Below are positions 2,624 through 50,200 of a stretch of DNA of 64,000 bases, in pieces. The stretch spans positions 69,063 through 133,062 of the forward strand of contig JAHFJM010000003.1 of the NCBI GenBank assembly GCA_023245935.1, given 5' to 3'. This DNA comes from Candidatus Peribacteria bacterium. Lineage in GTDB: Bacteria; Patescibacteriota; Gracilibacteria; Peribacterales; Peribacteraceae. A program made the position numbers and the translations under genes. The notes beneath the pieces are model-generated. The model was not told the origin of the DNA and did not search any database. It saw only the letters and a list, made by a program, of their open reading frames with translations. Positions within the stretch are counted from its first letter, which is position 1, and the number at the start of each line of letters is the position of its first letter.

Positions 2624-2653
2624 TTGACAATTGGTTTAGTACTAAACTAATAT
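2624..2653 (+). promoter_or_regulatory. Strong promoter with a palindromic operator in its spacer
   Basis: TTGACA (2624-2629) and TAATAT (2648-2653) are 18 nt apart. The spacer contains GTTTAGTACTAAAC (2634-2647), a perfect 14-nt palindrome abutting the -10. A regulator bound there would block polymerase. It reads into the short ORF and terminator that follow. Confidence 0.65.
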
Positions 2654-2684
2654 GAGCGCGTCTTAATTCTTTCCCACTCTCATC

Positions 2685-2717
2685 ATGTCTGGTGGACCAG
2701 GATGTGGCTGCAACTAA
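2685..2717 (+). CDS. Possible 10-residue microprotein MSGGPGCGCN
   Basis: ATG TCT GGT ... TGC AAC TAA encodes MSGGPGCGCN. It is framed by a near-consensus promoter 31 nt upstream and a strong intrinsic terminator that starts 10 nt after the stop, so the transcript would be only about 95 nt. The peptide has a CxC pair in a Gly/Pro context, which could bind a metal or be modified. It may instead be incidental to a small non-coding RNA. No Shine-Dalgarno site is visible. I do not recognise a family. The downstream rlmI-like ORF as listed in the track begins inside this ORF, but its real start lies beyond the terminator. Confidence 0.4.
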   Translation: MSGGPGCGCN

Positions 2718-2727
2718 GCAGTTCGAA

Positions 2728-2755
2728 AGGAGACCCCCTCGGGGGTCTTTTTTTT
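2728..2755 (+). terminator. Intrinsic terminator of the microgene transcript
   Basis: GGAGACCCC-CTCG-GGGGTCTTTTTTTT is a GC-rich stem with a tetraloop and a run of eight T residues. It separates the palindrome-controlled transcript from the rlmI-like gene that starts at 2774, or attenuates read-through into it. Confidence 0.85.
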
Positions 2756-4113: not shown

Positions 4114-4860
4114 TTACACCTGTATCCTCGCAAACAAAGTACTCCCCAGCCACAGAAAGAACATCGTCATCAGACCGAGGACGGTGATATCGAGTCCGAT
4201 GCCGAAATGACTCGCGCCGATGAGGCTGAAGCGCAGCGCATCCACGCCGTACGAGAGGGGATCGAGCTTCGTGATGATTTCGATGGCTTTCGGCAGCCCC
4301 TCCAGCGGGAAGAGTGCGCCGGAGAGGAAGAACAGCGGCATGACGAGGAAGTTCATGATGAGTTGGAAGCCCTGGAAGTCTTCGAGGACCGACGCGATTG
4401 CCGTACCGATTGCCGTGAAGAGAATGGCGATCAGGAACATGATGAGAATCGCCACCGGAACCATGCTCCAAGATTCGGGATGAAATCCCGCGAGGAAGGT
4501 GATGCAGAAGACGATGATGCCTTGGATCAGCGCGACCGTCGCACCTCCGATCGTCCTTCCGATCATGACAGCGAGACGAGGCACCGGAGCCACGAGTGTC
4601 TCTTTCAGGAAGCCGAACTGCCGATCCCAGATGATCTCGATGCCGGAGAAGATCGATGTGAAGAGCACGCTCATCGCGATCACGCCCGGCGCGAGAAACG
4701 TGATGTAATTGCCGCCTCCCGCTTTTGCGTAGATCGGACCTAAGCCGAAACCGAGCGCGAACAGAAAGAGCAGCGGCTGCCCGAGCGAGCCGATGATCCT
4801 CGACCGCGACCGGAGGTAGCGTTTGATTTGCCGGAGCCAGAGGATATAGATCGTGGACAT
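4114..4860 (-). CDS. ABC-2 type transporter permease (DrrB/NodJ-like)
   Basis: This is the membrane subunit of an ABC exporter. It is 248 aa with about six hydrophobic segments: a cytoplasmic amphipathic start (RQIKRYLRSRSRIIGSL), then 'PLLFLFALGFGLG', 'FLAPGVIAMSVLFTSIFSGI', 'GATVALIQGIIVFCITFLAG', 'ILIMFLIAILFTAIGTAIAS', 'MNFLVMPLFFLSGALFPL', and a last helix near the C-terminus. 'DPLSYGVDALR' near the end is the conserved ABC2_membrane motif. The gene lies 10 nt downstream of the ATPase gene in one operon, with no Shine-Dalgarno site in the gap. The substrate (drug, polysaccharide or lipid) cannot be told from sequence. Confidence 0.9.
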   Translation of the reverse strand: MSTIYILWLRQIKRYLRSRSRIIGSLGQPLLFLFALGFGLGPIYAKAGGGNYITFLAPGVIAMSVLFTSIFSGIEIIWDRQFGFLKETLVAPVPRLAVMIGRTIGGATVALIQGIIVFCITFLAGFHPESWSMVPVAILIMFLIAILFTAIGTAIASVLEDFQGFQLIMNFLVMPLFFLSGALFPLEGLPKAIEIITKLDPLSYGVDALRFSLIGASHFGIGLDITVLGLMTMFFLWLGSTLFARIQV

Positions 4861-4870
4861 GAGAGTGGGG

Positions 4871-5689
4871 TTACCGTTTTCGCCACATGCGGCTGTGGGC
4901 GCGGAGACTGTCGATCGGGCTCGCGTCTTCTTCGCGGATGGAACTGCCGGTCAGTTTGAGGAAGGCGTCTTCGAGATTGGCTGTCTGTGTCTTCGTTTTC
5001 AGATCCTGCGCCGATCCCATCGCAACGATTACGCCGTGGTCGATCACCGCGATGCGGCTTGCAACCCGATCCGCTTCCTCCATGTAGTGGGTCGTGAGAA
5101 AGACCGTGATGTTCTCTTTCTTGTTCAGATCCGTCACGTAATTCCAGAGATGATTCCGTGTCTGCGGATCCAAGCCAATCGTCGGTTCGTCGAGAAACAA
5201 GATCTTCGGATGATGCAGGAGCCCGCGTGCGATCTCGAGTCTGCGTTTCATCCCGCCCGAGAAATGTTTCACGAGATCATCTTTGCGATCTGAGAGACTC
5301 ACGATCTCCAGAAGTTCTTGCATACGCTCTCTCCGCAATTTTTTCGGCACTCCGTAGAGCACGCCGTGCAGTTCGAGGTTTTCCCATGCCGTGAGCTCGT
5401 CATCGAGACTCGGATCCTGAAAGACGATGCCGAACGACTGTCGAACGGATGCCTGATCCTTTGCCGGGTCGAACCCGTTCAGTCGGATCTCTCCGCTTGT
5501 CGGTCTCAGGAGTGTCGTGAGCATCTTGATGGTCGTCGTCTTGCCTGCACCGTTCGGTCCGAGGAATCCGAAGATTTCACCGGTGCGGACGTCGAACGAA
5601 ATATTCTTCACCGCTTTGATCTCACCGAAACTCTTCGTGAGATTCTTGACCGCGATAATCGGTGCCGAAGTGGAAGGGGAAGCAGTCAT
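4871..5689 (-). CDS. ABC transporter ATP-binding protein (DrrA-like)
   Basis: It powers the export system with the downstream permease. Domains in order: Walker A 'GPNGAGKTTT' near residue 44, Q-loop region 'FGIVFQDPSLDDELTAWENL', signature 'FSGGMKRRLEIARGL', Walker B 'ILFLDEPTIGLDPQTR', and H-loop 'TTHYMEEADRV'. The C-terminal tail 'LEDAFLKLTG' is typical of DrrA-type subunits. Length (272 aa) is slightly above a bare ATPase domain. The ATG at 5689 follows a TATAGT box about 14 nt upstream. It is divergent from the DUF2127 gene across a 62-nt gap with a palindrome. Confidence 0.93.
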   Translation of the reverse strand: MTASPSTSAPIIAVKNLTKSFGEIKAVKNISFDVRTGEIFGFLGPNGAGKTTTIKMLTTLLRPTSGEIRLNGFDPAKDQASVRQSFGIVFQDPSLDDELTAWENLELHGVLYGVPKKLRRERMQELLEIVSLSDRKDDLVKHFSGGMKRRLEIARGLLHHPKILFLDEPTIGLDPQTRNHLWNYVTDLNKKENITVFLTTHYMEEADRVASRIAVIDHGVIVAMGSAQDLKTKTQTANLEDAFLKLTGSSIREEDASPIDSLRAHSRMWRKR

Positions 5690-5714
5690 TAGTTGAGAAC
5701 TGAACTATACAGGA

Positions 5715-32435: not shown

Positions 32436-35400
32436 ATGAACACCGTTCGCCGATCACTGGCATCGATCCTCCTTGCGGCATTGGTCCTGTCGATTGTGTC
32501 ATCGGATGGGCAGAGCATTCGGGCTGCCGCTCCTTCCTTCGTTTCGGTTCCGCGGGGAGTGCGAATGGGAGGCTATGATCCGCTTGGTCCAACCGCGAAG
32601 GATTTCGTCGCTGCCACTTCGTCGCTTTCCGAGAGCCCGTTCTTCGGACCTGCGGAAGTCACTCTTGATGCAGGGAAATCAGGCAAAGTTTCGAGAGTCG
32701 GTGCGAAATCCGAAATGGCTGCGATGAGAGTGCGGATACTCGAGAGGGCGAAAGTCCGTCTCAAGTCTGTTCTCGCTACCTTCCTCGCCTTCTCCGGCGG
32801 AGAGAAGTACGCCCTCGGTCCCGCGAAGAACAATCAGGTTCTCACCTTCATCGACGGCAAGATCGTGTGGAGAGACCCTGGTGTCCTTCACTCTGCGGCA
32901 GGCGGTTCTTCCGACTCTGTTCACGAACCGGGTTCCGGACGCATGCCTGCCTCCGACACACTGACACGTCACATGGGCGGAAACCCCGTGCAGACCGCTA
33001 CAACCACGACAACCTCCGACGGCATATCTCAAGCCACAGCCGACTCCCGCTACGTGAATATCTCCGGCGACACCATGGATGGCGCTCTCAGCATCACGAG
33101 TAACGGCCTCGGCCTCACGATCTCCGGCACCGCTTCGGGCAACGCTCTCCACGCAGAGCGTCTCCTCACCGTCTCCGGTTCTTCCGTCTTCGACTCTAAT
33201 GCCAGATTCAATTCCACCGTCACGCTCAACAACGTCACCTACACCTTCCCCGCTTCCGACGGAGCAGGCTCCGGAAAAGTTCTCAAAACAAACGCAGCCG
33301 GTCAGCTCAGCTGGGCGGATGACAATGCCGTCGGCACCGGACTCTCTCAAGCATCCGGAGATTCCCGCTATGTGAACACCTCAGGCGACACCATGACTGG
33401 AGCACTCACGATCAACTTGAGCAGCGGTTATCTTGGACTCAAAATCCTCAACACCGCTTCCGGCAATATTCTCCACGCTGAGAAGGATCTCACGTCTTCC
33501 GGAACTCTCACTGTCAACGGAACTGCACGATTCAAATCCAATCTGAACACCGTTGGAACAATCTCCGGTGCCGCACTCGCGATTATGAATGGCAACACGA
33601 ATTACATTCTTGGATCGCTTGGCATCGGTACCACCTCCCCCAAAGCAAAACTTGATGTCACCGGCACCATCTCAGGAACAACGCTGACTATCTCCCGAAA
33701 CGGCTCGTTCTCAGGTTCTCTCATCGTTCAGAACAATATCGTTGCCAGAAGCACTATCTCCGGCTCCACGATCAACGGTTTCAATCTCGGTTCATGTAAC
33801 GGCTCTTCCCAGAAACTTCTCTACAACAACTCGACGCAGAAATTCGAATGCGGCTCCGATCTCAACTCAGGAGGAACCGGCACCTTCGGCACGGGCAACG
33901 TCATCACGATCGGCGACGGCAGATATGTGAACACAAGTGGCGATGCGATGACCGGGGCGCTCACGATCAATCTCAGTTCCGGTTTCATCGGACTCAAAAT
34001 CCTCAACACCGCTTCCGGAAACATTCTTCATGCTGAGAAGGATCTCACTTCCTCGGGAACACTCACGGTTAGCTCTACCGCACGATTCAAATCCAATCTG
34101 AACACCGTCGGAACAATCTCCGGAGCAGCTCTTCAGATCATGGCAGGCAGCACAAACTACATTCTTGGATCTCTTGGCATCGGCACCACCTCCCCCAAAG
34201 CAAAACTGGACATCGCAGGCACCATTTCCGGAACCACTCTGACCATCTCCCGAAACGGTTCCTTCTCCGGTTCTCTCATCGTCCAGAACAATATCACCGC
34301 AAGAAACACCATCTCCGGTTCCACGATCAACGGCTTCAATCTCGGTTCATGTAACGGTTCCTCACAGAAACTTCTCTACAACAACTCGACGCAGAAATTC
34401 GAATGCGGCTCCGATCTCAACTCAGGAGGAACCGGCACCTTCGGCACGGGCAATGTCATCACGATTGGTGATTCTCGTTATGTGAACACCTCAGGAGACA
34501 CCATGACAGGAGCACTCACGATCAATCTCAGTTCAGGTTTCATCGGACTCAAAATCATTCAGACAGCATCAGGCAATATTCTGCATGCGGAGAAAAACCT
34601 CACTTCCTCGGGAGGCTTGGTCTTCGAGGGTGCAGCGTCGGGATCGTCTCTCTACGTTGCAACGTCGATTCGTGGAGCAGGGCTTTCCGACTGCACAGGA
34701 GGCAACAAGCTGCTGTGGAATGCAACGACCGGTAGGTTCTCCTGTGTGCAGGATCAAACGGGATCAGCTCTCTCGGTCTCATCAGGCGATGCTCGTTACG
34801 TGAACACCAGCGGCGACACGATGACCGGAGCACTGACGATCAATCTCAGTTCCGGTTTCATCGGACTCAAAATCCTCAACACCGCTTCCGGAAATATTCT
34901 GCATGCGGAGAAATCTCTCACGTCTTCCGGAACTTTGACCGTGAATGGCATCGCGAGGTTTAAGAACAACGTGAATGTCGTTGGCACTGTTTCCGGAGCT
35001 GCACTCACCGTCATGAACGGAGTGTCCTCTATCCTCGGCTCTCTCGGTATCGGCACCACTTCACCCAAAGCGAAACTCGAAGTCCTCGGTTCGTTCTCCG
35101 GTTCCAGACTCTATGCAGCCTCCGCATTCTCGGGAGCGGGGCTTACATCCTGTTCTGGAGCCGGGCAGAAACTTCTCTGGAACAGCACGACCCAGCAGTT
35201 CTCGTGTTCGACCGATCTTACGACCGGTTCCTTCAGCTCCGGCAACGTCATCACGATCGGCGACTCACGCTACGTGAATGTCTCCGGTGACACCATGACC
35301 GGCGCACTCACGATCAATCTGAGTTCCGGTTTTCTCGGACTGAAAATTCTCCAGACCGGATCCGGAAATATTCTGCATGCGGAGAAAAATCTCACATCGT

Positions 35401-38400
35401 CTGGAACGATCATCGCGAGAAACAACATCGTAACCGAGCAAGGAACACTGATCACACGTTACGGTCTCACGTTCTTGTCGGGCAGTTCGCTCGCTGAAAT
35501 CAGCGGGTTCAGTAATTATGTGAACTTCCGGGAAGGCATCGGTACGGATTCTTCGATTCGTCTCACATCGCAGGGCAATCTCCGGAACATCGGTTCGATC
35601 CAGGCAGGGGAGACGCTGCTGACGGCGGGAGGGACGTTTGCGGCGAGGGTCAATTACGGAGCTGGTACGCTTCCGTCCTCCGTTGCAATCGGAGACCTCA
35701 ATGGTGACGGGAGAAGCGATATCGTCATTGCAAACAGCGGTGTGAATTCAATCTCCGTTTTCATCAATACGGGAACCGGAAGTTTTGCGACGAAGGTCAA
35801 CTATACGACCGGATCCGCTCCGCGCTCGGTTGCCATCGGGGATCTGAACGGTGATGGGAAGCCCGATCTTGCGGTGGCAAATCAGAACGGTGCGTCGGTC
35901 TCGGTCTTCAGAAATTTGGGCAGCGGCACGTTTGCGGCGAAAGCGGATTACGGCGCAGGCACGACTCCGTACGGAGTTGCCATTGCGGATTTCAACGGTG
36001 ACGGCAGAACCGATCTCGCCGTCGTGAATAACGGCGCCGATTCCGTCTCGATTCTTCTGAATATCGGAAACGGCGTCTTCGCTTCCAAAGTCGATCTTGC
36101 AACCGGTTCGCTGCCGTCGTCCGTTGCATCGGCGGATCTGAACGGCGACGGGAAACAGGATCTTCTCGTCACGAATGTCGGAACCGATACGGCATCGGTG
36201 TTCTTTGGCATCGGTGACGGAACATTCGCATCAAGTGTCAATTATTCCACGGGTTCCGCGCCGTATTCCGTTTCCGTCGGCGATCTGAATGCGGATGGAA
36301 AACCGGACGTCGCCGTTGCGAACTTCGGCAGTGACACTGTCTCGGTGCTCTTGAACACCGGCACGGGTTCCTTTGCATCCAAAACCGACTATGCCACGGG
36401 TTCCGCACCGTACTCGGTTACAATCGGCGATCTCGACGGAGACGGCAAAGGCGATCTCGCGGTGACAAACAGCAACGGGAATTCCGCCTCAACGTTCTTG
36501 AACAGAGGAAACGGGACATTCCTTTCGAGAACGGATCTCACGACCGGATCTGTTCCGCAGTCCATCGCGATTGGCGATCTGAATGCCGACGGAAAGGGCG
36601 ATCTTGCCGTTGCCAACAACAGCAGCGCGTCGGTCTCTGTACTTCTCAGCAGACCGCGCACCATCCTCTTCGCTGCCGCTTCTACCGGCGGAGTCGTCGG
36701 CATCGGTACATCGACGCCGGGAGCCAAACTCTCGATTTCCGGTGCGGTGATCATCAGTGCGCGCGGCGATCTCGCAAATGCACGCACGGACAGCGGCATA
36801 GTACTCGAAGTTGCAGGAACGATCTCCGGAACGGCACTGAAGCTGATGAATAACTTGTCGGTCTCAGGAAGCATTCTCTCTCTTCGTGGGATCACGAGTC
36901 GCGGCACGGTCTCCGGAAACAACTTAATCGTTTCTCATAGCGCATCCATTTCCGGCACGCTCCTCGTCAAAACATCGATTGCTTCGAAGGGCTCCTTGTC
37001 CGGCACAACGATCGGGGGCTTCGGCTTCGGTTCGTGTACCGGTCAGTATCAGAAACTTCTCTACAACAACACAACCAATACATTCGTTTGCGGCACCGAT
37101 GCCCTGAATCCGGTCTACGGCAGCGGAAACATGCTCACCGTGACCAATGCGCGTTACGTGAACACTTCCGGCGATACGATGACCGGATCCCTCACGATCA
37201 ACCTCAGTTCCGGCTTCATCGGACTGAAAGTGTTGCAGACCGCTTCCGGAAATATTCTGCATGCCGAGAAAGATTTGAGCAGTTCGGGAACACTCACGGT
37301 AAACGGCATTGCGAGATTTAAAAATAACCTGAACGCCGTCGGCACCGTCTCAGGAGCTGCACTCACGGTCATGAACGGCACGAGTACCATTCTCGGATCT
37401 GTCGGCATCGGTAATAGTTCTCCGAAAGCGAAGCTCGATGTCTCAGGAACAATTTCCGGAACGACGCTGACCATCAGCAAGAACGGTTCATTCTCGGGAA
37501 CGCTTCTCGTTGTCTCGGATATCACGGCACGCGGGACGTTATCCGGAACCAATCTGACGGTCTCGAAGTCCGCATCGATCTCGGGTGCACTCCTCGTGAA
37601 AACATCGATCACCTCGAAGGGCTCTCTCTCCGGCGTCACAATCGCAGGCTTCTCGCTCGGCTCTTGTAGCGGCGTCTCGCAGAAGCTCCTCTATAACAAC
37701 TCGACGCAGACATTCGAGTGCGGCGACGACATCGGGCTTCTTGACAATACGAACTCCGGAAATGTGCTGGCAATCGGCAATGCCCGCTATGTGAAGAAGC
37801 AAGGCGACACGATGACCGGAGCGCTGATCATCAATCTCTCGTCCGGGTATTTGGGACTCAGGATTCTGCAGATGGCATCGGGCTCCATCCTCCATGCCGA
37901 GAAATCTCTCACGAGTTCAGGACTCCTGATGGTGGTGCAGTCGACCGCGAGAGGTTCGGGAGCACTCGTGGTCGAGCAGCGAACGAACTCGACCGGAGCG
38001 TACATCACGTCACGCTCACAGTTTAACCCCGTCCTTGCGCTCGACAGTTCGACGGGTTCATTCAAGGCTCCGCATATTCTCTTTGGAACGAATGGATTCT
38101 TCGATGTCGCGCTCTGGCGGACTGCGGGTGCGCTGAACTTGTCCGGTCATCTGCTTCCCGGACTCACGAACAAATTCGATCTCGGTTCGTCGACCAAGCG
38201 TTGGAGATCGATCTACTTGTCGGGTGGAACGATGTTCATCGGTACGGCTGGGAATGAAGCATCGATCAGCTATAACACTTCCGCCTCCCGCTTCGGTATT
38301 GATGCGAACACGGATGGCACGAATGAACTGAGTATTCTCAGCACCGGGAATGTCGGCATCGGCACTTCTATTCCGAAAGCAAAACTGGACGTCCTCGGCA

Positions 38401-41400
38401 CGATCTCGGGAACAACACTCGTGATCAGCAAGAATGCCTCGTTCTCCGGTTCGCTGACGGTGAGTAGCAGCATCACGTCTCGCGGATCCGTATCCGGATC
38501 GACGATCAGCGGCTTCTCGCTTGGATCCTGCAACGACAGTTCCACCAGCAAGCTCCTCTACAACTACTCGACGCAGAAATTCGAATGCGGTACCGACAGC
38601 AACCCCGGTGCCGGATTCGGACTGCTTAATCTCTACGCCATCGGTGACGCGCGCTATGTCCTGAAACAGGGCGACACGATGACGGGAACGCTCAAGAGCA
38701 GGGGATACTTACTTGCCTCCGGCACGACACTGTCTGAAATGTCCGGCTGGAACGAGTATCTGAATTTGCCTCACTCGGGCATTGGAACAAATTCAGTCAC
38801 TCGTCTGACGAACCAAGGAGATCTCACAAACATTTCTACGATTCAATCAGGCGAAGCAAATTTCACGAGAGGAGGAACGTTTGCTGCCAAGGTGGATTAC
38901 AGCACGGGTACCACTCCACATTCTGTTGCTATTGGAGATATGAATGGTGATGGAAAGCAGGATCTTGCAACGGCAAACTATACCAGCAATACCGTCTCTG
39001 TTTTCCTAAATACAGGTACAGGTTCTTTCGCTACGAAGGTGGATTATATGACGGGAACCAATCCTTACGGTGTCGCTGTCGGTGACGTGAACGGGGACGG
39101 AAAGGCAGACATTGTAGTGGCAAATATAACTAGCAACTCCGTCTCTGTCTTCCTGAACAACGGCAACGGTACCTTCTCTGCAAAAATCGATTATACGACG
39201 GGATCAAATCCCTACTCCGTTGCCATCGGTGATCTGAATGGTGATGGCAAGGCTGATCTTGCAGTTGCTAACTACAATAGTACCTCCGTCTCCGTTTTCC
39301 TGAATACCGGCAACGGTACCTTCTCTGCAAAAATCGATTATACGACGGGATCAAATCCCTACTCCGTCGCCATCGGAGACCTGAACGGGGATGGGAAAGC
39401 GGATCTTGCGGTTGCAAATAATCAGAGCACCTCCGTCTCTGTCTTCCTGAACAACGGCAACGGTACCTTCTCTGCAAAAGTCGATTACACGGCTGGTTCC
39501 AATCCAGCCTCCGTTGCCATCGGTGATCTGAATGGTGATGGTAAGGCTGATCTTGCAGCAGCGAATTCTCAAAGTACCTCCGTCTCTGTCTTCCTGAACA
39601 ACGGCAACGGTACCTTCTCTGCAAAAGTCGATTACACGACGGGAAATTATCCCTTTTTCGTTGCCATCGGAGACCTCAATGGCGATGGAAAGGCAGACTT
39701 GGCGGTTGCCGTAGCTGGCAGTGACTCCGTCTCCGTCTTCCTGAATAACGGCAACGGCACCTTTTCACAAAAAGTGGATTACGGAGCGGGTTCCAATCCT
39801 CACTATGTCGTCGTCGGTGACGTGAACGGGGACGGGAAGCCCGACCTTGCAGTTGCAAACTACAGCAGCGACACCGTCTCCGTTCTCCTCAACCAATCCA
39901 AAACGATCCTCTTCGCCTCCTCCGGCACGGGCGGAGCCGTCGGTATCGGGACACCCACGCCTGGTTCCATCCTCGCTGTTTCCGGTGCGATGCTGATCAA
40001 CGGCAACGGAGACATTCTGAATTCCGGTGTGAATGCCGGAGTCGCACTCGAAGTTGTCGGCACCGCGTCCGGTCGTGTGCTACGTGCATCGACGAGGCTC
40101 GAATCTTCGGGGTCTCTCATCGTCGAAGGGACGATTTCCGGTGCGACGCTCAGGCTTGGGAACCTTGGAATTTGCAATACAAGTGTGAAGAAGCTCACCT
40201 ATAACAGCACGACGAACAATATCGAATGTGCGTTTGATTCGTACGCTCAGGCGTTCGGCACAGGCAACGTGCTCGTTATCGGCGACGGCCGCGCGCTCAA
40301 GAGAGCAGGCGGGACGATGACCGGAGCACTGACGATTAACCTGTCTTCCGGATATCTTGGGCTCAAAGTTCTTCAGACCGCTTCCGGAAATATTCTGCAC
40401 GCAGAGAAAGACCTTACGAGTTCCGGAACACTCACTGTAAATGGCGTCGCAAGATTCAAAAACAACGTGAATGTCGTCGGTACGGTATCGGGAGCAGTGC
40501 TCACCGTCATGAACGGCACAAGTTACTTCCTCGGTTCTCTCGGCATTGGAAATACTTCTCCGAAAGCAAAGCTCGATGTGCGAGGCGCAATCTCGGGTAC
40601 TACACTCACCGTCTCGGGCAACGGTTCGTTCTCGGGATCTCTCATTGTCAAAAACAACTTATCCGGCAGCAGCTTCTACGGTGCCGGGCTTGGAGACTGT
40701 AACAATGCGACATCCTCGAAACTTCTCTACAACAACGCAACCGGAAAATTCGGCTGTGCCGCTGATACAGGAGGAACGGCGTACGAGTACCAGAATGCTG
40801 CGGGTACGTTCGTGAATCAAGCAGGCGATACGATGACCGGAGCACTCACGATCAACTTGAGCTCCGGTTTCATCGGTCTGAACGTTCTGCAGACAGCTTC
40901 CGGAAACATTCTGCATGCAGAGAAAAGTCTCACGTCTTCGGGCAGCCTCACGGTGGTCGGCGTTGCGAGGTTCAAAAACAATCTGAACGTCGTTGGCACT
41001 ATCTCAGGCGCAGCACTGACGGTCATGAACGGCACGAGCTACATGCTCGGTTCCGTCGGTATCGGTAATACCTCACCGAAAGCAAATCTCGATGTCTCCG
41101 GAACGATTTCCGGCACAACGCTTGTGATGAGTAAGAACGGCTCGTTCTCCGGTTCGCTCATCGTCAAGAACAACTTATCCGGCAGCAGCTTCTACGGTGC
41201 CGGGCTTGGAGACTGTAACAATGCGACATCCTCGAAACTTCTCTACAACAACGCAACCGGGAAGTTCGGCTGTGCGAGTGACCAGGTCGGAGTGGCAACT
41301 TTTACCTATGCTTCCACTGTCGGGACGTTCGTGAATCAATCCGGTGACACGATGACCGGAGCACTCACGATTAACTTAAGCAGCGGTTATCTTGGACTGA

Positions 41401-44400
41401 AAGTCCTGCAGACCGCTTCCGGAAATATTCTGCACGCAGAAAAGAATCTCACATCGTCCGGAACAATCGTTGCTGCCGGAGATATTCTTTCGAAAAACGG
41501 AACTGCGAAAACCAAAGGCTATGTTCTCTTCTCGGGTGCAACGCTTTCGGAAATGTCAGGCTTCAACGAATACCTCAACATCATCCATTCCGGACTTGGC
41601 ACAAACTCCGTCACTCGTCTCACAAATCAGGGTGACCTCAAAAATATCGGGACGATTCAATCCGGAGAAGCACACATGCGAAGGGGAGGGACGTTTGCGA
41701 CAAAGGTTAATTATGCGGCAGGGGTAGCTGCTTACGGAGTTGCTGCAGGAGACCTCAATGGTGATGGAAAAGCAGACTTTGCAGTCGTGAACTATGGGAT
41801 AATAAATACCTCTGCAAACAGCTCTCTCTCTATCTACATCAATACCGGTACGGGTTCCTTTGCAACAAGAGTGAATTATACAACCTTACAAAATCCTAAA
41901 TCAGTTGCTATAGGAGATCTCAATGGTGATGGAAAGCCTGATATTGCCATAGGCGGTGATTCGGGATATGTTTCGATTTACATAAATAAGGGCAATGGCA
42001 CGTTCGCTACAAAAGTTGATTACGCGGTGGGCAGCAATGGTCACGTTGCAATCGGCGATCTGAATGGCGATGGAAAGGCGGATCTCGCTGTTGCAAATGG
42101 CTATAGTAGTGCCTCTATCTCCATCCTCCTCAATAACGGCAACGGAACCTTTGCTGCAAAAGTTGATTACACTGCGGAAGCGTCCATCAGCTCTATCGCC
42201 ATCGGGGACATTAATGGCGATTCGAAAATAGATATTGCAGTGACGAACGAAAACGCCGATAGTCTCTCTATTTTCATGAATAACGGCAACGGCACTTTTG
42301 CTACCAAAGTCGATTATGCAACCGGAGTATATCCGCGATCCGTTTCGATTGGAGATCTTAATAATGATAATAAGGCCGATCTTGCAGTCGCAAACTATAC
42401 GACCGAGGCTGTATCGGTATTTATGAACAATGGTGATGGAACGCTTGCGACAAAAGTTGATTATGATGCGCTTGCTGCGGGGGAGGAAGTTGTCATTGGA
42501 GATCTGAATGGTGATGGTAAACAAGATCTTTCCGTTTTATTTCAGACAGCTGGATTGTCTATTTTCATTAATAATGGCAATGGCACCTTCGCAGCGCAGA
42601 GCCTATTTTCTACAGAAAGCAATTCAGGGGTTCATGCCTTGGCTGACTTCAACGGCGATGGAAAATTGGATGTGGTTGTTCCCACATACCAATTGAATCT
42701 CGTTTCCGTCTTAATGAACCAATCCAAAACCATCCTCTATGCCTCATCCGGCACAGGTGGCGCCGTCGGTATCGGCACACCGACGCCGGGCTCGGCACTT
42801 GCGGTCTCCGGTGCCGTGCTCATCAATGCAAACGGCAATATTGTGAATACCAAAGCCGATGCAAGACTTGCTCTTGAGGTGATCGGTACGATGTCGGGTC
42901 GAGTGTTGCATGCGCAGGATGTGCTCCGCTCCAGCGGCTCACTGATTGTCGAAGGGAATATGTCCGGAGCAACACTGCAAGGCGCAGGGCTTGCGAGTTG
43001 TAATGCTTCGACGAAGAAACTTCTCTACAACAATTCCACCAAGAAATTCGAGTGCGGAACGGATCAGGGGGCTTCCTTTGCATTTGGATCCGGAAATGTC
43101 ATCACGATCGGCAACAGTCGTTACGTTCGCACCTCGGGCTCGACGATGACCGGCGCACTTACGATCAATCTCACCTCCGGCTACCTCGGACTGAAAGTCT
43201 TGCAGACCGCTTCCGGCAATATTCTCCATGCGGAGAAGAGCCTCACGAGCTCCGGAACCATCATCGCAGGAACCGATATCATCGCGAAGGGAACGATAAA
43301 GAGCGATGCGTACGTCTTCAGCTCCGGCACAACCCTTGCGGAGATGTCCGGTTGGAACGAGTACGTCAACATCGTGCATTCCGGACTCGGCACGAACTCC
43401 GTCACCCGTCTCACGAATCAGGGTGATCTGAAAAATATCGGAACGATACAATCCGGAGAAGCGAACTTCAGGAGGGGTGGGACGTTTGCACCGGCGTTGG
43501 ATTATACAACGGGATCAAATCCCGAGTCTGTTGCCATCGGTGACCTGAACGGTGATGGGAAGGCGGATCTTGCAGTCGCGAACAATGACGATTCCTCCGT
43601 CTCTATCTTCCTCAACAACGGCAACGGTACCTTCGCCACAAAGGTCGATTACACTACGGGTACGGATCCTTATTCCGTTGCCATCGGTGACCTGAACGGT
43701 GATGGAAAGCCGGATCTTGCTGTTACCAACGACGACATGCTCGGCTTAAACTATTCTGTTTCCATCTTCCTCAACAAGGGCAACGGCACCTTCGCCACAA
43801 AGGTCGATTACACTACCGGCAACCGCCCCTTCTCTGTTGCCATCGGAGACCTGAACGGTGACGGGAAGGCGGATCTCGCAACGGCAAACTATGACTCGAC
43901 TTCGGTTTCCGTCTTCTTGAATAATGGCAATGGCACTTTCGCTGCAAAAGTCGATTACGCAACGGGGGGCGCTTCAGCCTCCGTTGCCATCGGAGACCTG
44001 AACGGTGACGGGAAAGCAGATCTTGCTGTTACTAGTGCTGGCTACGTCTCCGTTCTCCTTAACAAGAGCAATGGTACCTTTGCCGCAAAGGTCGATTATA
44101 CGGCAGGAACCTTTCCCTGGGGCGTTGCCATCGGCGATCTGAACGGTGATGGCAAGGCGGATCTTGCTGTTACGAACTATCAAGGTGAATCCATATCCGT
44201 TTTCATGAATAACGGTAATGGCACCTTCGCAGCGAAGGTCGATTACACAATCGGCAGCCAGGTATTCTCTGTCGCAATCGGAGACCTAAATGGCGATGGG
44301 GCAATGGACATTGTTACGGGGAATGGTTCCCTCTCCGTTTTCATGAATAACGGTAACGGTACCTTTGCTACGCAGGCTTACTACGGGGGAAATATCTATC

Positions 44401-46550
44401 TTTCGGTTGCCATCGGAGATCTGAATGGTGACGGAAAAGCAGACCTTGCAGGAGTGAAGAATAACAGTAACACCGTCTCTGTCTTCTTAAACCTCTCCCG
44501 CACTATTCTCTTCGCCTCCTCCGGCACAGGTGGCGCCGTCGGTATCGGCACGCCCACTCCCGGTTCCGCACTCGCGGTCTCCGGTGCCGTGCTCATCAAT
44601 GCAAACGGGAATATCAGGAATACTGCTGCCGGTGCGAGCAGTGCACTCGAAGTGATCGGCACTGCGTCCGGAAGAATTCTTCATGCGCAGGATCTCCTCA
44701 GATCTTCCGGTGCTCTTGCCATTGAAGGTGTCTCATATTTCGGTTCCGGTGTCACGATCAAGTCGACACATACGAAAGCAGGCGCGAGCGAATTCACGAT
44801 CATCACCGACTACTCAAGCAGCTCCAACAAAGTCTTCAGAGTATCCGCCTCCGGTGCGGTGTATGCAGACGGAACATATAACAGCAACGGTGCGGACTAT
44901 GCGGAGTGGTTTAGGGTGACCCCCGCCGCCTCACCCCCGGCCCCTCTCCCTGATGGGAGAGGGGAGACCCTGGAACCAGGTGAAGTCGTGTGTATCGACA
45001 TCCTTCACAACAACTCCGTCTCTCGCTGCACTCGTTCCGGCGATCCCAATGTTATGGGCATCGTCTCCACGAATCCCGCCTTCGTCGGAAATGTCATCAG
45101 TGGCGCCGAAGGCATCATTCCTCCCGGCTACGCTCTCATCGGACTCATCGGTCAGGTTCCGGCAAAACCAAGCCTTGAAAACGGTCCGATACGTCCCGGG
45201 GATTCCGTCACATCTGCCACCGAACCCGGCTTCGTTCGCAAAGCTTCTGCCGGAGAATCCACCGTGGGTGTTGCTCTCGAAGGATATGACGGTTTGGATT
45301 CAGTTATTGCAACTGACTCAAAGCTCAAAGCTCAAAGCTCAAAGCTTATTAATATTTTAATCTCCCGCAAAAATCAGTCCCTCACGGTCGAAACGATCGA
45401 GCAGAAAGTTCTTCAGCAGATCGCTTCGATGAATCTCAGTGATGAAGTCAGTCGTCTCGTGAACCAAGCGTCCACCAATCTGAATATCGACGATCGGGTG
45501 ACGCAAGCTCTGAGCCGGCAACTTCAAGCACTCGATCTTGCTTCGCAGATCAACGGCATTGTTGATCAGAGGCTCTCTCACCTTAACTCATCTGGACATA
45601 TCCTTACCTTCGGTACGTCACTGAGCGGTGCAGCGCTTGCAGATCTCGTGAAAGCTATCGTTGCAGAACTTTCGCAGACGACGGCAACGGGATCTTTTGC
45701 ACAGAATCAGGAATCAGGAATCAGGAATCAGGAATTGCAACTCTCCGAACTTCGGGATCAATTCCTCATTCTCACAGCTCACAGCTCACAGCTCACAGCT
45801 TCTCTGGGCTCTGGACACACGCTGCATGCCGCAGCCCTGAACCTCTCCTCCGGTGCCACTATCTCCGGCTCTCTCCGCCTCATGAGTTCCATGGTTGTTC
45901 CTCATCAATTCTCAATTATCAATTCTCAATTATCAATTCTGTCCGTTTCCGGTTCCGCCATCGATATCGGCTCTCTCTTTGCATCAGGATCGCTCAAAGT
46001 CATCGGCAACATCACGATCACCGGACTTGCTACGTTCCTCGGCGACGTTCACATCAAGGGCGACCTTGTCCTGAGTAGCAGGCAAGCAGGCTTCGCAGTC
46101 ATTCCTGTTTCTAGCACTGCTGTCACTGTTACCTTCTCAGGTGCCATGGCAACCCGACCGATGGTGATTGCGACGCCGAACGCACTCGTGAAATTCGGCA
46201 TTACCGCAGTGTCGGCAACCGGCTTTACGATTCGATTGAAAGAACCTGCGACTGAGGAAGTGAGATTCTCATTTGTCGCTTGGGGTAGCGATAATCCAAT
46301 GACGACGCAGGGAGTGATTGCGCCTGCAGCCGTTCCGACTACCGTTGACGTACCGTCGATTTTGCCGCTGCTTCAGACATTGTCCGGCACGTTGCAGTCG
46401 GTCGATCATGCGATGATGCAGACGGAAAGCGGTGTTTCGGTGGTTCCTGAGAGTGAACCAAGTGCGGTGCCGATAATGGATTCGGGGACGGTTCTCAGTC
46501 CCGATCCAATCCTCACCCCCGTCCCCTCTCCTTCGGCAGGAGAGGGGTGA
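32436..46550 (+). CDS. Giant surface protein 1: four FG-GAP propellers on tail-fibre-like repeats
   Basis: 4704 aa. A signal peptide (RRSLASILLAALVLSIVSS, cleavage near RAAA) and the conserved head 'AFSGGEKYALGPAKNNQVLTF' come first. Then follow 13 'GDTMTGAL' fibre repeats, each with 'ILHAEK..TSSG', 'IGTTSPKAKLDV' and 'C...QKLLYNNSTQKFEC' cysteine pairs (11 pairs). Four blocks of exactly seven FG-GAP repeats (GDLNGDGKADLAVAN) are inserted. The C-terminal part has a Peptidase_G2-like module ('DYAEWF', 'PGEVVCID', 'VMGIVSTNPAF', 'NGPIRPGDSVT'), helices, and a beta domain. There is no LPXTG or membrane anchor. It is probably a fibrous adhesin. In-frame palindromic and heptamer insertions lie in the last 600 residues, and the stop codon lies inside a palindromic repeat. 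It is colinear with giant gene 2. Confidence 0.85.
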   Translation: MNTVRRSLASILLAALVLSIVSSDGQSIRAAAPSFVSVPRGVRMGGYDPLGPTAKDFVAATSSLSESPFFGPAEVTLDAGKSGKVSRVGAKSEMAAMRVRILERAKVRLKSVLATFLAFSGGEKYALGPAKNNQVLTFIDGKIVWRDPGVLHSAAGGSSDSVHEPGSGRMPASDTLTRHMGGNPVQTATTTTTSDGISQATADSRYVNISGDTMDGALSITSNGLGLTISGTASGNALHAERLLTVSGSSVFDSNARFNSTVTLNNVTYTFPASDGAGSGKVLKTNAAGQLSWADDNAVGTGLSQASGDSRYVNTSGDTMTGALTINLSSGYLGLKILNTASGNILHAEKDLTSSGTLTVNGTARFKSNLNTVGTISGAALAIMNGNTNYILGSLGIGTTSPKAKLDVTGTISGTTLTISRNGSFSGSLIVQNNIVARSTISGSTINGFNLGSCNGSSQKLLYNNSTQKFECGSDLNSGGTGTFGTGNVITIGDGRYVNTSGDAMTGALTINLSSGFIGLKILNTASGNILHAEKDLTSSGTLTVSSTARFKSNLNTVGTISGAALQIMAGSTNYILGSLGIGTTSPKAKLDIAGTISGTTLTISRNGSFSGSLIVQNNITARNTISGSTINGFNLGSCNGSSQKLLYNNSTQKFECGSDLNSGGTGTFGTGNVITIGDSRYVNTSGDTMTGALTINLSSGFIGLKIIQTASGNILHAEKNLTSSGGLVFEGAASGSSLYVATSIRGAGLSDCTGGNKLLWNATTGRFSCVQDQTGSALSVSSGDARYVNTSGDTMTGALTINLSSGFIGLKILNTASGNILHAEKSLTSSGTLTVNGIARFKNNVNVVGTVSGAALTVMNGVSSILGSLGIGTTSPKAKLEVLGSFSGSRLYAASAFSGAGLTSCSGAGQKLLWNSTTQQFSCSTDLTTGSFSSGNVITIGDSRYVNVSGDTMTGALTINLSSGFLGLKILQTGSGNILHAEKNLTSSGTIIARNNIVTEQGTLITRYGLTFLSGSSLAEISGFSNYVNFREGIGTDSSIRLTSQGNLRNIGSIQAGETLLTAGGTFAARVNYGAGTLPSSVAIGDLNGDGRSDIVIANSGVNSISVFINTGTGSFATKVNYTTGSAPRSVAIGDLNGDGKPDLAVANQNGASVSVFRNLGSGTFAAKADYGAGTTPYGVAIADFNGDGRTDLAVVNNGADSVSILLNIGNGVFASKVDLATGSLPSSVASADLNGDGKQDLLVTNVGTDTASVFFGIGDGTFASSVNYSTGSAPYSVSVGDLNADGKPDVAVANFGSDTVSVLLNTGTGSFASKTDYATGSAPYSVTIGDLDGDGKGDLAVTNSNGNSASTFLNRGNGTFLSRTDLTTGSVPQSIAIGDLNADGKGDLAVANNSSASVSVLLSRPRTILFAAASTGGVVGIGTSTPGAKLSISGAVIISARGDLANARTDSGIVLEVAGTISGTALKLMNNLSVSGSILSLRGITSRGTVSGNNLIVSHSASISGTLLVKTSIASKGSLSGTTIGGFGFGSCTGQYQKLLYNNTTNTFVCGTDALNPVYGSGNMLTVTNARYVNTSGDTMTGSLTINLSSGFIGLKVLQTASGNILHAEKDLSSSGTLTVNGIARFKNNLNAVGTVSGAALTVMNGTSTILGSVGIGNSSPKAKLDVSGTISGTTLTISKNGSFSGTLLVVSDITARGTLSGTNLTVSKSASISGALLVKTSITSKGSLSGVTIAGFSLGSCSGVSQKLLYNNSTQTFECGDDIGLLDNTNSGNVLAIGNARYVKKQGDTMTGALIINLSSGYLGLRILQMASGSILHAEKSLTSSGLLMVVQSTARGSGALVVEQRTNSTGAYITSRSQFNPVLALDSSTGSFKAPHILFGTNGFFDVALWRTAGALNLSGHLLPGLTNKFDLGSSTKRWRSIYLSGGTMFIGTAGNEASISYNTSASRFGIDANTDGTNELSILSTGNVGIGTSIPKAKLDVLGTISGTTLVISKNASFSGSLTVSSSITSRGSVSGSTISGFSLGSCNDSSTSKLLYNYSTQKFECGTDSNPGAGFGLLNLYAIGDARYVLKQGDTMTGTLKSRGYLLASGTTLSEMSGWNEYLNLPHSGIGTNSVTRLTNQGDLTNISTIQSGEANFTRGGTFAAKVDYSTGTTPHSVAIGDMNGDGKQDLATANYTSNTVSVFLNTGTGSFATKVDYMTGTNPYGVAVGDVNGDGKADIVVANITSNSVSVFLNNGNGTFSAKIDYTTGSNPYSVAIGDLNGDGKADLAVANYNSTSVSVFLNTGNGTFSAKIDYTTGSNPYSVAIGDLNGDGKADLAVANNQSTSVSVFLNNGNGTFSAKVDYTAGSNPASVAIGDLNGDGKADLAAANSQSTSVSVFLNNGNGTFSAKVDYTTGNYPFFVAIGDLNGDGKADLAVAVAGSDSVSVFLNNGNGTFSQKVDYGAGSNPHYVVVGDVNGDGKPDLAVANYSSDTVSVLLNQSKTILFASSGTGGAVGIGTPTPGSILAVSGAMLINGNGDILNSGVNAGVALEVVGTASGRVLRASTRLESSGSLIVEGTISGATLRLGNLGICNTSVKKLTYNSTTNNIECAFDSYAQAFGTGNVLVIGDGRALKRAGGTMTGALTINLSSGYLGLKVLQTASGNILHAEKDLTSSGTLTVNGVARFKNNVNVVGTVSGAVLTVMNGTSYFLGSLGIGNTSPKAKLDVRGAISGTTLTVSGNGSFSGSLIVKNNLSGSSFYGAGLGDCNNATSSKLLYNNATGKFGCAADTGGTAYEYQNAAGTFVNQAGDTMTGALTINLSSGFIGLNVLQTASGNILHAEKSLTSSGSLTVVGVARFKNNLNVVGTISGAALTVMNGTSYMLGSVGIGNTSPKANLDVSGTISGTTLVMSKNGSFSGSLIVKNNLSGSSFYGAGLGDCNNATSSKLLYNNATGKFGCASDQVGVATFTYASTVGTFVNQSGDTMTGALTINLSSGYLGLKVLQTASGNILHAEKNLTSSGTIVAAGDILSKNGTAKTKGYVLFSGATLSEMSGFNEYLNIIHSGLGTNSVTRLTNQGDLKNIGTIQSGEAHMRRGGTFATKVNYAAGVAAYGVAAGDLNGDGKADFAVVNYGIINTSANSSLSIYINTGTGSFATRVNYTTLQNPKSVAIGDLNGDGKPDIAIGGDSGYVSIYINKGNGTFATKVDYAVGSNGHVAIGDLNGDGKADLAVANGYSSASISILLNNGNGTFAAKVDYTAEASISSIAIGDINGDSKIDIAVTNENADSLSIFMNNGNGTFATKVDYATGVYPRSVSIGDLNNDNKADLAVANYTTEAVSVFMNNGDGTLATKVDYDALAAGEEVVIGDLNGDGKQDLSVLFQTAGLSIFINNGNGTFAAQSLFSTESNSGVHALADFNGDGKLDVVVPTYQLNLVSVLMNQSKTILYASSGTGGAVGIGTPTPGSALAVSGAVLINANGNIVNTKADARLALEVIGTMSGRVLHAQDVLRSSGSLIVEGNMSGATLQGAGLASCNASTKKLLYNNSTKKFECGTDQGASFAFGSGNVITIGNSRYVRTSGSTMTGALTINLTSGYLGLKVLQTASGNILHAEKSLTSSGTIIAGTDIIAKGTIKSDAYVFSSGTTLAEMSGWNEYVNIVHSGLGTNSVTRLTNQGDLKNIGTIQSGEANFRRGGTFAPALDYTTGSNPESVAIGDLNGDGKADLAVANNDDSSVSIFLNNGNGTFATKVDYTTGTDPYSVAIGDLNGDGKPDLAVTNDDMLGLNYSVSIFLNKGNGTFATKVDYTTGNRPFSVAIGDLNGDGKADLATANYDSTSVSVFLNNGNGTFAAKVDYATGGASASVAIGDLNGDGKADLAVTSAGYVSVLLNKSNGTFAAKVDYTAGTFPWGVAIGDLNGDGKADLAVTNYQGESISVFMNNGNGTFAAKVDYTIGSQVFSVAIGDLNGDGAMDIVTGNGSLSVFMNNGNGTFATQAYYGGNIYLSVAIGDLNGDGKADLAGVKNNSNTVSVFLNLSRTILFASSGTGGAVGIGTPTPGSALAVSGAVLINANGNIRNTAAGASSALEVIGTASGRILHAQDLLRSSGALAIEGVSYFGSGVTIKSTHTKAGASEFTIITDYSSSSNKVFRVSASGAVYADGTYNSNGADYAEWFRVTPAASPPAPLPDGRGETLEPGEVVCIDILHNNSVSRCTRSGDPNVMGIVSTNPAFVGNVISGAEGIIPPGYALIGLIGQVPAKPSLENGPIRPGDSVTSATEPGFVRKASAGESTVGVALEGYDGLDSVIATDSKLKAQSSKLINILISRKNQSLTVETIEQKVLQQIASMNLSDEVSRLVNQASTNLNIDDRVTQALSRQLQALDLASQINGIVDQRLSHLNSSGHILTFGTSLSGAALADLVKAIVAELSQTTATGSFAQNQESGIRNQELQLSELRDQFLILTAHSSQLTASLGSGHTLHAAALNLSSGATISGSLRLMSSMVVPHQFSIINSQLSILSVSGSAIDIGSLFASGSLKVIGNITITGLATFLGDVHIKGDLVLSSRQAGFAVIPVSSTAVTVTFSGAMATRPMVIATPNALVKFGITAVSATGFTIRLKEPATEEVRFSFVAWGSDNPMTTQGVIAPAAVPTTVDVPSILPLLQTLSGTLQSVDHAMMQTESGVSVVPESEPSAVPIMDSGTVLSPDPILTPVPSPSAGEG
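35628..36650 (+). repeat. Giant 1, propeller block A (7 FG-GAP blades)
   Basis: Seven repeats of about 46 residues (138 bp) with D-x-N-x-D-G calcium loops (GDLNGDGRSD, GDLNGDGKPD, ADFNGDGRTD, ADLNGDGKQD, GDLNADGKPD, GDLDGDGKGD, GDLNADGKGD). It is the most diverged of the four blocks. Confidence 0.9.
38871..39894 (+). repeat. Giant 1, propeller block B (7 blades)
   Basis: Seven blades. Blades 3-6 share long identical DNA stretches such as GGTACCTTCTCTGCAAAA, which points to recent blade-to-blade conversion. Confidence 0.9.
41685..42723 (+). repeat. Giant 1, propeller block C (7 blades)
   Basis: Seven blades with more AT-rich codons than neighbouring sequence (GDINGDSKID, GDLNNDNKAD among the loops). 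Two calcium loops deviate from the consensus. Confidence 0.9.
43476..44500 (+). repeat. Giant 1, propeller block D (7 blades)
   Basis: Seven blades. Blade 2 has a short insertion (DDMLGLNYS) and blade 6 has lost the usual loop end (GDLNGDGAMD). Confidence 0.9.
44929..44967 (+). repeat. Palindromic element inserted in frame in giant gene 1
   Basis: CCTCACCCCC followed by CCCCTCTCC...GGAGAGGGG is the first hairpin of the dispersed element. It encodes 'SPPAPLPDGRG' between 'DYAEWF' and 'LEPGEVV'. In giant gene 2 the same linker site holds a heptamer repeat instead. Confidence 0.75.
45317..45344. repeat. Heptamer tandem repeat CTCAAAG x4
   Basis: Four perfect copies (28 nt) inside giant gene 1, encoding 'SKLKAQSSKL'. 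The colinear site in giant gene 2 lacks the repeat. Confidence 0.9.
45705..45732. repeat. Heptamer tandem repeat AATCAGG x4
   Basis: Four perfect copies (28 nt) in giant gene 1, encoding 'NQESGIRNQE'. Giant gene 2 has only 'DQNYELQ' at this place. Confidence 0.9.
45771..45798. repeat. Heptamer tandem repeat CTCACAG x4
   Basis: Four perfect copies (28 nt) in giant gene 1, encoding 'TAHSSQLTA'. Giant gene 2 has three degenerate heptamers at the colinear position (60499-60519). Confidence 0.9.
45906..45940. repeat. Heptamer tandem repeat CAATTCT/CAATTAT x5
   Basis: Alternating CAATTCT and CAATTAT units (35 nt) in giant gene 1, encoding 'QFSIINSQLSIL'. The paralogue has a degenerate version in the colinear segment. 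Confidence 0.85.
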
Positions 46551-47255: not shown

Positions 47256-50200
47256 ATGAATACACTGAAACAACTTCTGGCACGAGTGCTGCTTGGCACA
47301 CTTTTCCTCGGGATGTTCCCGACGGAACTGAGTGCCGCGGTTCCCGTTGGTAAAAAGATTTCTTCAGTCGTTTCTTCTTCGAAAACCGCAGCGACGCATC
47401 CCACGATCTTCAGCCCGACAGCGCGCGATTTTTCTCCTTCGAAAATCACAAAAGTGAACAACGCTGTCGGAGCATCGCAGATTGATTCTGCGAGACTGCG
47501 GAGACTTGCAGCGGCAAAAGCCGTTGCATCATCCGTCCTCGAAACCTTCCTCGCCTTCTCCGGCGGAGAGAAGTACGCCCTCGGTCCCGCAAAGAACAAT
47601 CAAGTCCTCACCTTCATCGACGGCAAGATCGTCTGGAGAGATGTCGATGCATTGCACTCTGCGGCAGGCGGTTCTCCCGATGTTGTTCACGAACCCGGCA
47701 GAGGCAGAATGCCTTCCTCCGATTCCGGTGGTGACTCCCGTCACATGGGTGGAACCCCGGTTCAGACCGCCACAACCACGACAACTTCCGACGGCATCTC
47801 TCTGGCAACAGCCGACTCCCGCTACGTGAATGTCTCCGGCGACACCATGGATGGCGCTCTCAGCATCACGAGCAACGGTCTTGGTTTGATTATCTCCGGC
47901 ACCGCTTCGGGCAACGCTCTCCACGCAGAGCATCTCCTCACCGTCTCCGGTTCTTCCATCTTCGACGGAAGCGCTCGATTCAACTCCAGCGTCACGCTGA
48001 ACAACGTCACCTACACCTTCCCCGCTTCCGACGGAGCAGGTTCCGGAAAAGTTCTTAAAACCAATGCAGCCGGCCAGCTCTCCTGGGCGGATGACAATGC
48101 CGTCGGCACAGGGCTCTCTCAAGCATCCGGTGATTCCCGATATGTGAATGTCTCCGGCGATACGATGACCGGAGCTCTCACAATCAATCTCAGCTCAGGA
48201 TTCATCGGTCTCAAAGTTCTCAACACCGCTTCCGGAAATATCCTTCATGCGGAGAAGGATCTTACTTCCTCGGGAACACTCACGGTCAGCTCCACCGCAC
48301 GATTCAAATCGAATCTCAACACCGTCGGAACAATCTCCGGAGCAGCTCTTCAGATCATGGCAGGAAGCACCAATTACATTCTTGGATCGCTTGGCATCGG
48401 TACAACGAATCCCAAAGCAAAACTTGATGTCACCGGCACCATCTCAGGAACAACGCTGACTATCTCCCGAAACGGCTCGTTCTCAGGTTCTCTCATCGTT
48501 CAGAACAATATCGTTGCCAGAAGCACTATCTCCGGCTCCACGATCAACGGTTTCAATCTCGGTTCATGTAACGGCTCTTCCCAGAAACTTCTCTACAACA
48601 ACTCGACGCAGAAATTCGAATGCGGATCCGATCTTAACTCCGGAGGAACCGGCACCTTCGGCACCGGCAACGTCATCACGATCGGTGATTCACGTTATGT
48701 GAACACGAGTGGCGATGCGATGACCGGGGCACTCACGATCAACTTGAGCAGCGGTTATCTTGGATTGAAAGTCTTGCAGACCGCTTCCGGCAATATTCTC
48801 CATGCGGAGAAATCTCTCACAAGCTCAGGAACTCTCACCGTCTCAGGAATCACCAGACTCAAATCCAATCTCAATGTCGTCGGAACAATCTCCGGAGCAG
48901 CTCTTCAGATCATGGCAGGCAGCACAAACTACATTCTCGGTTCCCTCGGAATCGGTACAACGAATCCCAAAGCAAAACTTGATGTTCTTGGCACGATCTC
49001 GGGCTCTACGCTCGTCATTTCCAGAAACGGTTCTTTCTCAGGTTCTCTCGTCGTCCAAAACAATATCACCGCTCGCGGTACCATCTCCGGTTCCACGATC
49101 AACGGTTTCAACCTCGGTTCTTGCAACGGATCTTCTCAGAAACTTCTCTACAACAACTCGACGCAGAAATTCGAATGCGGTTCCGATCTCAACTCCGGAG
49201 GAACCGGCACCTTCGGCACCGGCAATGTGATCACCGTCGGTGACGGTCGTTACGTGAATACTTCCGGCGACACCATGACCGGAGCACTGACCATCAATCT
49301 CAGCTCAGGCTTCATCGGACTCAAAATCATCCAGACTGCTTCCGGAAACATTCTTCATGCGGAGAAAAACCTCACTAGCTCCGGTGGTTTGGTCTTCGAG
49401 GGTGCCGCATCGGGATCGTCTTTGTACATTGCGACTTCTCTGCAGGGAGCGGGACTCACGAATTGCACCGGCAGCAATAAACTTCTCTGGGACTCTGCAA
49501 CCGGCAGGTTCTCCTGCGGAATCGATCAGACATCGGGATCGGGGCTTGATCAGAACTCCGGCGATGCACGGTACGTGAATGTCTCCGGTGACACGATGAC
49601 CGGCGCACTCACGATCAATCTCAGTTCTGGTTTCATCGGACTGAAAGTATTGCAAACTGCTTCCGGCAATATTCTGCATGCGGAGAAAGATCTGACGTCT
49701 TCCGGAACACTCACTGTCTCCGGCATTGCGAGGTTCAAAAATAACGTGAATGTCGTCGGAACCGTTTCCGGCGGCGCTCTCACCATCATGAACGGTGTGT
49801 CTTCCATCCTCGGTTCCCTTGGCATTGGCACATCTTCGCCCAAAGCAAAACTCGAAGTGATCGGATCTTTCTCCGGTTCCAGACTCTACGCCGCTTCCGC
49901 ATTCTCGGGAGCAGGGCTGACCTCTTGTTCCGGTGCGGGGCAGAAACTTCTCTGGAACAGCACGACCCAGCAGTTCTCCTGCGGGGTTGACCTGAGTTCC
50001 TTCGGTTCGGGGAATGTTCTCACCGTTGGCGATTCCCGCTACGTGAATGTCTCCGGCGACACCATGACCGGCGCACTCACGATCAACCTGAGTTCCGGTT
50101 ATCTTGGTCTCAAAATCCTCAACACTGCTTCCGGAAATATTCTGCATGCCGAGAAAAATCTCACCTCGTCGGGGACGATCGTTGCCAGAAACAACATCGT

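Follow-up and report, generated by a model that had tools for sequence, protein, structure and literature searches.

Does a reading frame of ten codons, with a promoter in front of it and a terminator behind it, constitute a gene, and if so, what would its product do? The question is raised by a locus of a Candidatus Peribacteria genome. In the 64-kb window (the whole stretch of DNA that was analysed) the initial annotation had described a promoter, a palindrome, a ten-codon ORF with a CxC motif and a terminator, and all of these elements were recovered in the sequence (Table 1). The ORF starts with the ATG at 2685 and its TAA stop ends at 2717. The promoter shows a 10/12 match to the sigma-70 consensus with a spacer of 18 nt, and the terminator hairpin (about 2726-2755) has a folding energy of -17.9 kcal/mol (z -3.2). 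The 14-nt palindrome, GTTTAGTACTAAAC (2634-2647), is the only match at up to 2 mismatches in the window, where 0.03 are expected, and has no second copy in the 1.2-Mb genome. It is present as described, but the dyad is longer, and the operator spans about 20 bp (2631-2650). The earlier argument that such a unit is unlikely to arise by chance does not hold for the promoter match alone, which is not above chance (6 found versus 4.1 expected). It holds for the unit as a whole, because the whole unit is conserved in eight genomes.

Table 1. Coordinates (window positions) of the microgene unit and of the second predicted operator with its exporter genes.
Feature	Position	Strand	Remarks
-35 element TTGACA	2624..2629	+	invariant in 8/8 homologues
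20-bp operator TTGGTTTAGTACTAAACTAA, with the 14-nt palindrome at 2634-2647, located in the spacer from -35 to -10	2631..2650	.	matrix score 29.5, best in window
-10 element TAATAT	2648..2653	+	TATACT in the two other genera
5' UTR, short, pyrimidine-rich, without Shine-Dalgarno sequence	2660..2684	+	putative transcription start
Microgene MSGGPGCGCN, 10 codons plus stop	2685..2717	+	indels in frame and third-position changes synonymous in 8 homologues
Intrinsic terminator	2726..2755	+	hairpin and T-run; kept in homologues
ABC-2 permease, DrrB type	4114..4860	-	PF01061 3.9e-37; TIGR01247 narrowly below cut-off
ATPase of the ABC exporter, DrrA type, predicted member of the regulon	4871..5689	-	TIGR01188, 9e-101, above cut-off
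Second operator TTAGTTGAGAACTGAACTAT at promoter/start of DrrAB-type ABC exporter	5689..5708	.	matrix score 28.6, second best in window

A search of 74 genomes of Ca. Peribacteraceae with a pattern consisting of the promoter and the palindrome returned nine matches, eight of which are the microgene unit. The carriers (8/74) belong to three genera and comprise every genome in the set from each of them (3/3, 3/3 and 2/2). The initial annotation had proposed a check for the peptide and the palindrome in relatives; both are conserved, in eight genomes. Among 85,462 species the pattern was found in Ca. Peribacteria records only, and viral contigs gave no match. A class-wide search of 353 genomes with a second pattern (promoter, start and GG...CGC codons) retrieved the same eight carriers and two further matches (G246 and G318), which have no operator and appear to be due to chance. 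The ninth match in the family, in genome G003, is not the microgene unit either and belongs to the promoter of a different, unrelated MarR gene. At this locus (L012, about 1501-1526) the promoter holds TACTTGAGTACTCAAGTA, a perfect palindrome that looks like the operator of that unrelated MarR, and a gene for an SRPBCC-type protein lies next to the MarR gene.

The eight homologous peptides (MSGGPGCGCN, MFGGGCGCGK, MTGGCGCK, MIGGGSCGC, MFGGGSCGCGH, MFGGGACGCGN, MTGPGCGC and MTGPGCGCGA) are 8-11 amino acids long and follow the form M-x-G-(G/P)-...-C-G-C-(0-2 residues). Over the aligned Gly, Cys, Gly and Cys codons, the pairwise differences at the first, second and third codon position number 0, 0 and 42, respectively. 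The distance from ATG to CGC is 12, 15 or 18 nt, so that every indel within the ORF is in frame, whereas the 5' UTR shows single-base, frame-breaking indels among the homologues. Differences confined to third positions together with in-frame indels indicate purifying selection on the encoded peptide. The microgene is therefore very probably a translated and conserved gene, and the CxC ORF of the initial annotation appears to encode a real micropeptide, with eight homologues, within a complete unit of operator, promoter, ORF and terminator. A Shine-Dalgarno-like sequence is present at 1 of the 27 long ORFs in the window, a rarity which suggests that initiation independent of this sequence is the rule in this organism.

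In the relatives the operator reads ATTAGTTYAG-TA-CTAAACTAAT and the 20-bp dyad is roughly WTRGTTYAGWWCTRAACYAW. A first search for further sites, allowing 3 mismatches, did not find more secondary sites than the reversed control, and the sites were settled only by a symmetric degenerate pattern (TNGTTNAGWWCTNAACNA, up to 1 mismatch) and by gene context. With this pattern 22 sites were found in the eight carriers versus 0 in eight non-carrier members of the family, and the reversed pattern gave 2 and 3, respectively. The pattern was chosen after the first sites had been seen, and the contrast with the non-carriers and the repeated gene context outweigh the raw count. Fourteen sites lie outside the microgene, at genes for UvrA (4), NfsB-like nitroreductases (4), EmrB-type MFS exporters (2), RibBA (2), the DrrAB exporter (1) and an SRPBCC protein (1). 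Thirteen of them are located directly at a promoter or start; the site of the SRPBCC-protein gene is about 200 bp off. The most conserved co-regulated gene is uvrA, with operators in two genera and two further sites at 2 mismatches in the third; the EmrB-type sites come from two genera. Judged by the sites found, the microgene alone among the regulon members has an operator in each of the eight genomes, and its full -35 element with the operator in the spacer is the strongest promoter-operator arrangement in the regulon. Apart from the microgene and uvrA, regulon members have a patchy distribution over the genomes. A matrix built from the found sites scored the two operators of the window, both part of its training set, at 29.5 and 28.6, followed by 8.0 for the third best site. 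This third site (283-302), close to the pyrD start, is probably due to chance. The predicted operator and regulon are well supported by these comparisons.

The dyad of 20 bp at promoters is the palindromic operator expected of a MarR-type regulon. Of the 74 family genomes, the eight carriers and no others encode a MarR protein with six invariant cysteines. The cysteines lie in ACCER, CQA and CCHKSN and near residue 114 (CC...C...CC...C). The protein has the winged-helix domain (PF01047, 3.6e-11, above the cut-off) and a MarR homologue in the PDB (3bja, 5e-17). Six of the 8 genomes have a weak operator over the start codon of its gene, at an identical position (per-site p about 3e-5); genus g19 has none. 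The one-to-one co-occurrence of microgene and MarR is well supported, and the Cys-rich MarR, which would bind the 20-bp operator, is probably its regulator, the link being correlative. An HxlR/DUF24 (YodB/QsrR) regulon was also considered and rejected: HxlR regulators (PF01638) were found in none of the eight carriers and in 14/14 controls.

One genome, G022, is nested in the carrier clade (UvrA tree, 100/100; 100/97 with genera g1 and g46), and lacks both the MarR and the microgene. Upstream of its uvrA the sequence is CTATGGTCGCACCATAG, versus CTATGGTTTAGATATGAACCATAG in G065; the outer arms of the operator remain and its centre is gone. About half of the G022 genome, sampled as stretches, contained no convincing operator site, and the pyrD/relA locus, with the empty site expected there, did not turn up in the half that was covered. 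The joint loss of regulator, microgene and operator supports a functional link among them. The co-occurrence lies mostly in one clade and counts largely as one gain and one loss.

In the regulon, nitroreductases stand for reduction, RibBA for flavin supply, the MFS and ABC proteins for export and UvrA for the repair of bulky DNA lesions. We propose that the microgene is a stand-alone micropeptide gene of 8-11 codons with a strong sigma-70 promoter, and that the inverted repeat between -35 and -10 would serve as operator for a repressor, the Cys-rich MarR being the most likely one. Xenobiotic or electrophilic compounds (quinones, nitroaromatics or drug-like molecules), the putative inducers, would inactivate MarR. 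Upon derepression the micropeptide would be made together with the EmrB-type MFS and DrrAB-type ABC exporters, nitroreductases, RibBA and UvrA. The Gly-rich Cys-Gly-Cys peptide would then act as a ribosomally made low-molecular-weight thiol, which traps electrophiles or reduces disulfides. A MarR-repressed xenobiotic/electrophile-stress regulon with such a dithiol peptide is the best overall explanation and may be correct; for the micropeptide itself, a role as thiol scavenger or in redox reactions is possible. We infer both the accumulation of the peptide and its chemistry, the latter from the peptide sequence alone, and a product of ten residues may be degraded fast. It is a rather doubtful extension that in some Peribacteria a ribosomally made dithiol peptide of 8-11 residues replaces an enzymatic thiol such as glutathione, with a thiol-sensing MarR inducing it as the core of the xenobiotic-stress response.

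The same CGC dithiol could make the peptide a tiny ligand of soft metals (Cu(I), Hg, As or Zn), like a minimal metallothionein or chaperone, with the MarR, rich in Cys pairs, as the metal sensor. This is unlikely: no metal pump, reductase or metallochaperone was found at the regulon sites, and nitroreductase, uvrA, drug exporters and ribBA as co-regulated genes speak for xenobiotic or electrophile stress more than for metal. The peptide might also be a regulator, either feeding back on the Cys-rich MarR by re-reducing or blocking it, or acting as a signal, and so switch the regulon off again. The invariable presence of the operator at the microgene and the disappearance of the microgene together with MarR in G022 would suit such a role, but no secretion signal is present in a peptide of 8-11 amino acids, and we consider the role quite unlikely.

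A small regulatory RNA whose pyrimidine-rich 5' part pairs with mRNAs, with the ORF incidental, is an improbable reading of the transcript. The compact transcript with its terminator and the conserved C/U-rich 5' UTR are compatible with it. Against it stand the variation of the ORF at third positions only and its in-frame indels, and an RNAalifold analysis of the homologue set found no conserved RNA structure apart from the terminator stem; an Rfam search gave no match. That the operator belongs to LexA is very improbable. LexA homologues are present in the carriers, and uvrA, which leads the co-regulated genes in conservation, is a classic SOS gene; however, LexA was also found in 8/8 non-carriers tested, which have no operator sites. 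LexA normally autoregulates, and none of the found sites is near lexA. A LexA/SOS regulon was rejected for these reasons. The suggestion of the initial annotation that the unit is a regulatory RNA for the following rRNA methyltransferase gene fitted genus g1, where the short ORF and terminator lie between cspA and rlmI, but a leader or attenuator of that gene is extremely unlikely. The two other genera have the unit between pyrD (pyrK) and relA, and no alternative antiterminator helix is conserved. All three genera retain the terminator although the downstream gene differs, which argues for an independent microgene.

The predicted MarR-repressed regulon resembles the MhqR, YodB, CatR and QsrR regulons, which answer quinone and electrophile stress in Bacillus and Staphylococcus and in which a palindromic operator overlaps promoters and nitroreductases are targets (PMC6798810). 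MarR proteins bind pseudo-palindromes of 16-20 bp, and nitroreductases belong to the MhqR, QsrR and YodB regulons (PMC6798810). Cys-based sensing, known from YodB and QsrR (PMC6798810), would be a further shared feature. The MhqR operator, TATCTCGAA-aTCGAaATA (PMC6798810), differs from the 20-bp operator of Peribacteria. Unlike MarR/DUF24 systems, the carriers have no HxlR/DUF24 protein, and compared with the MhqR, YodB, CatR and QsrR regulons the Peribacteria regulon adds uvrA, ribBA, exporters and the micropeptide gene. The xenobiotic response of enterobacteria through SoxRS, MarA and Rob likewise brings together nitroreductase, flavin synthesis, efflux and DNA repair, but relies on AraC-type activators and is not known to include a micropeptide, whereas the Peribacteria regulon would follow repressor-operator logic. 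The literature searched describes no MarR regulon that has uvrA, nitroreductase and EmrB together.

Small thiols that would act against electrophile or disulfide stress have counterparts in the low-molecular-weight thiols glutathione, bacillithiol and mycothiol and in synthetic Cys-Gly-Cys, a disulfide-isomerase mimic. The Peribacteria peptide would differ from these in that a dedicated gene encodes it and the ribosome makes it. Like mccA of microcin C, which has 7 codons, the microgene has fewer than 12 codons and a product that would be a functional peptide; unlike mccA, it has no adjacent gene for a modification enzyme or immunity, and it is the CGC that is conserved and not the C-terminal Asn. 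Annotation pipelines, to our knowledge, do not call genes of 8-11 codons. The comparative evidence indicates that a gene of this size can be conserved and central to a regulon in bacteria that are uncultured and little understood. If the proposal is true, few dedicated protein-coding genes on record would be as short as the microgene, and should the peptide serve as a thiol cofactor, it would represent a directly coded alternative to glutathione-type metabolism.

Two further features of the window were observed. A perfect 12/12 sigma-70 promoter lies at 330-301 on the minus strand and is directed out of the left window edge. Two neighbouring giant ORFs on the plus strand (32436-46547 and 47256-61619; 4704 and 4788 aa) each contain more than 20 FG-GAP repeats and are probable giant surface proteins.
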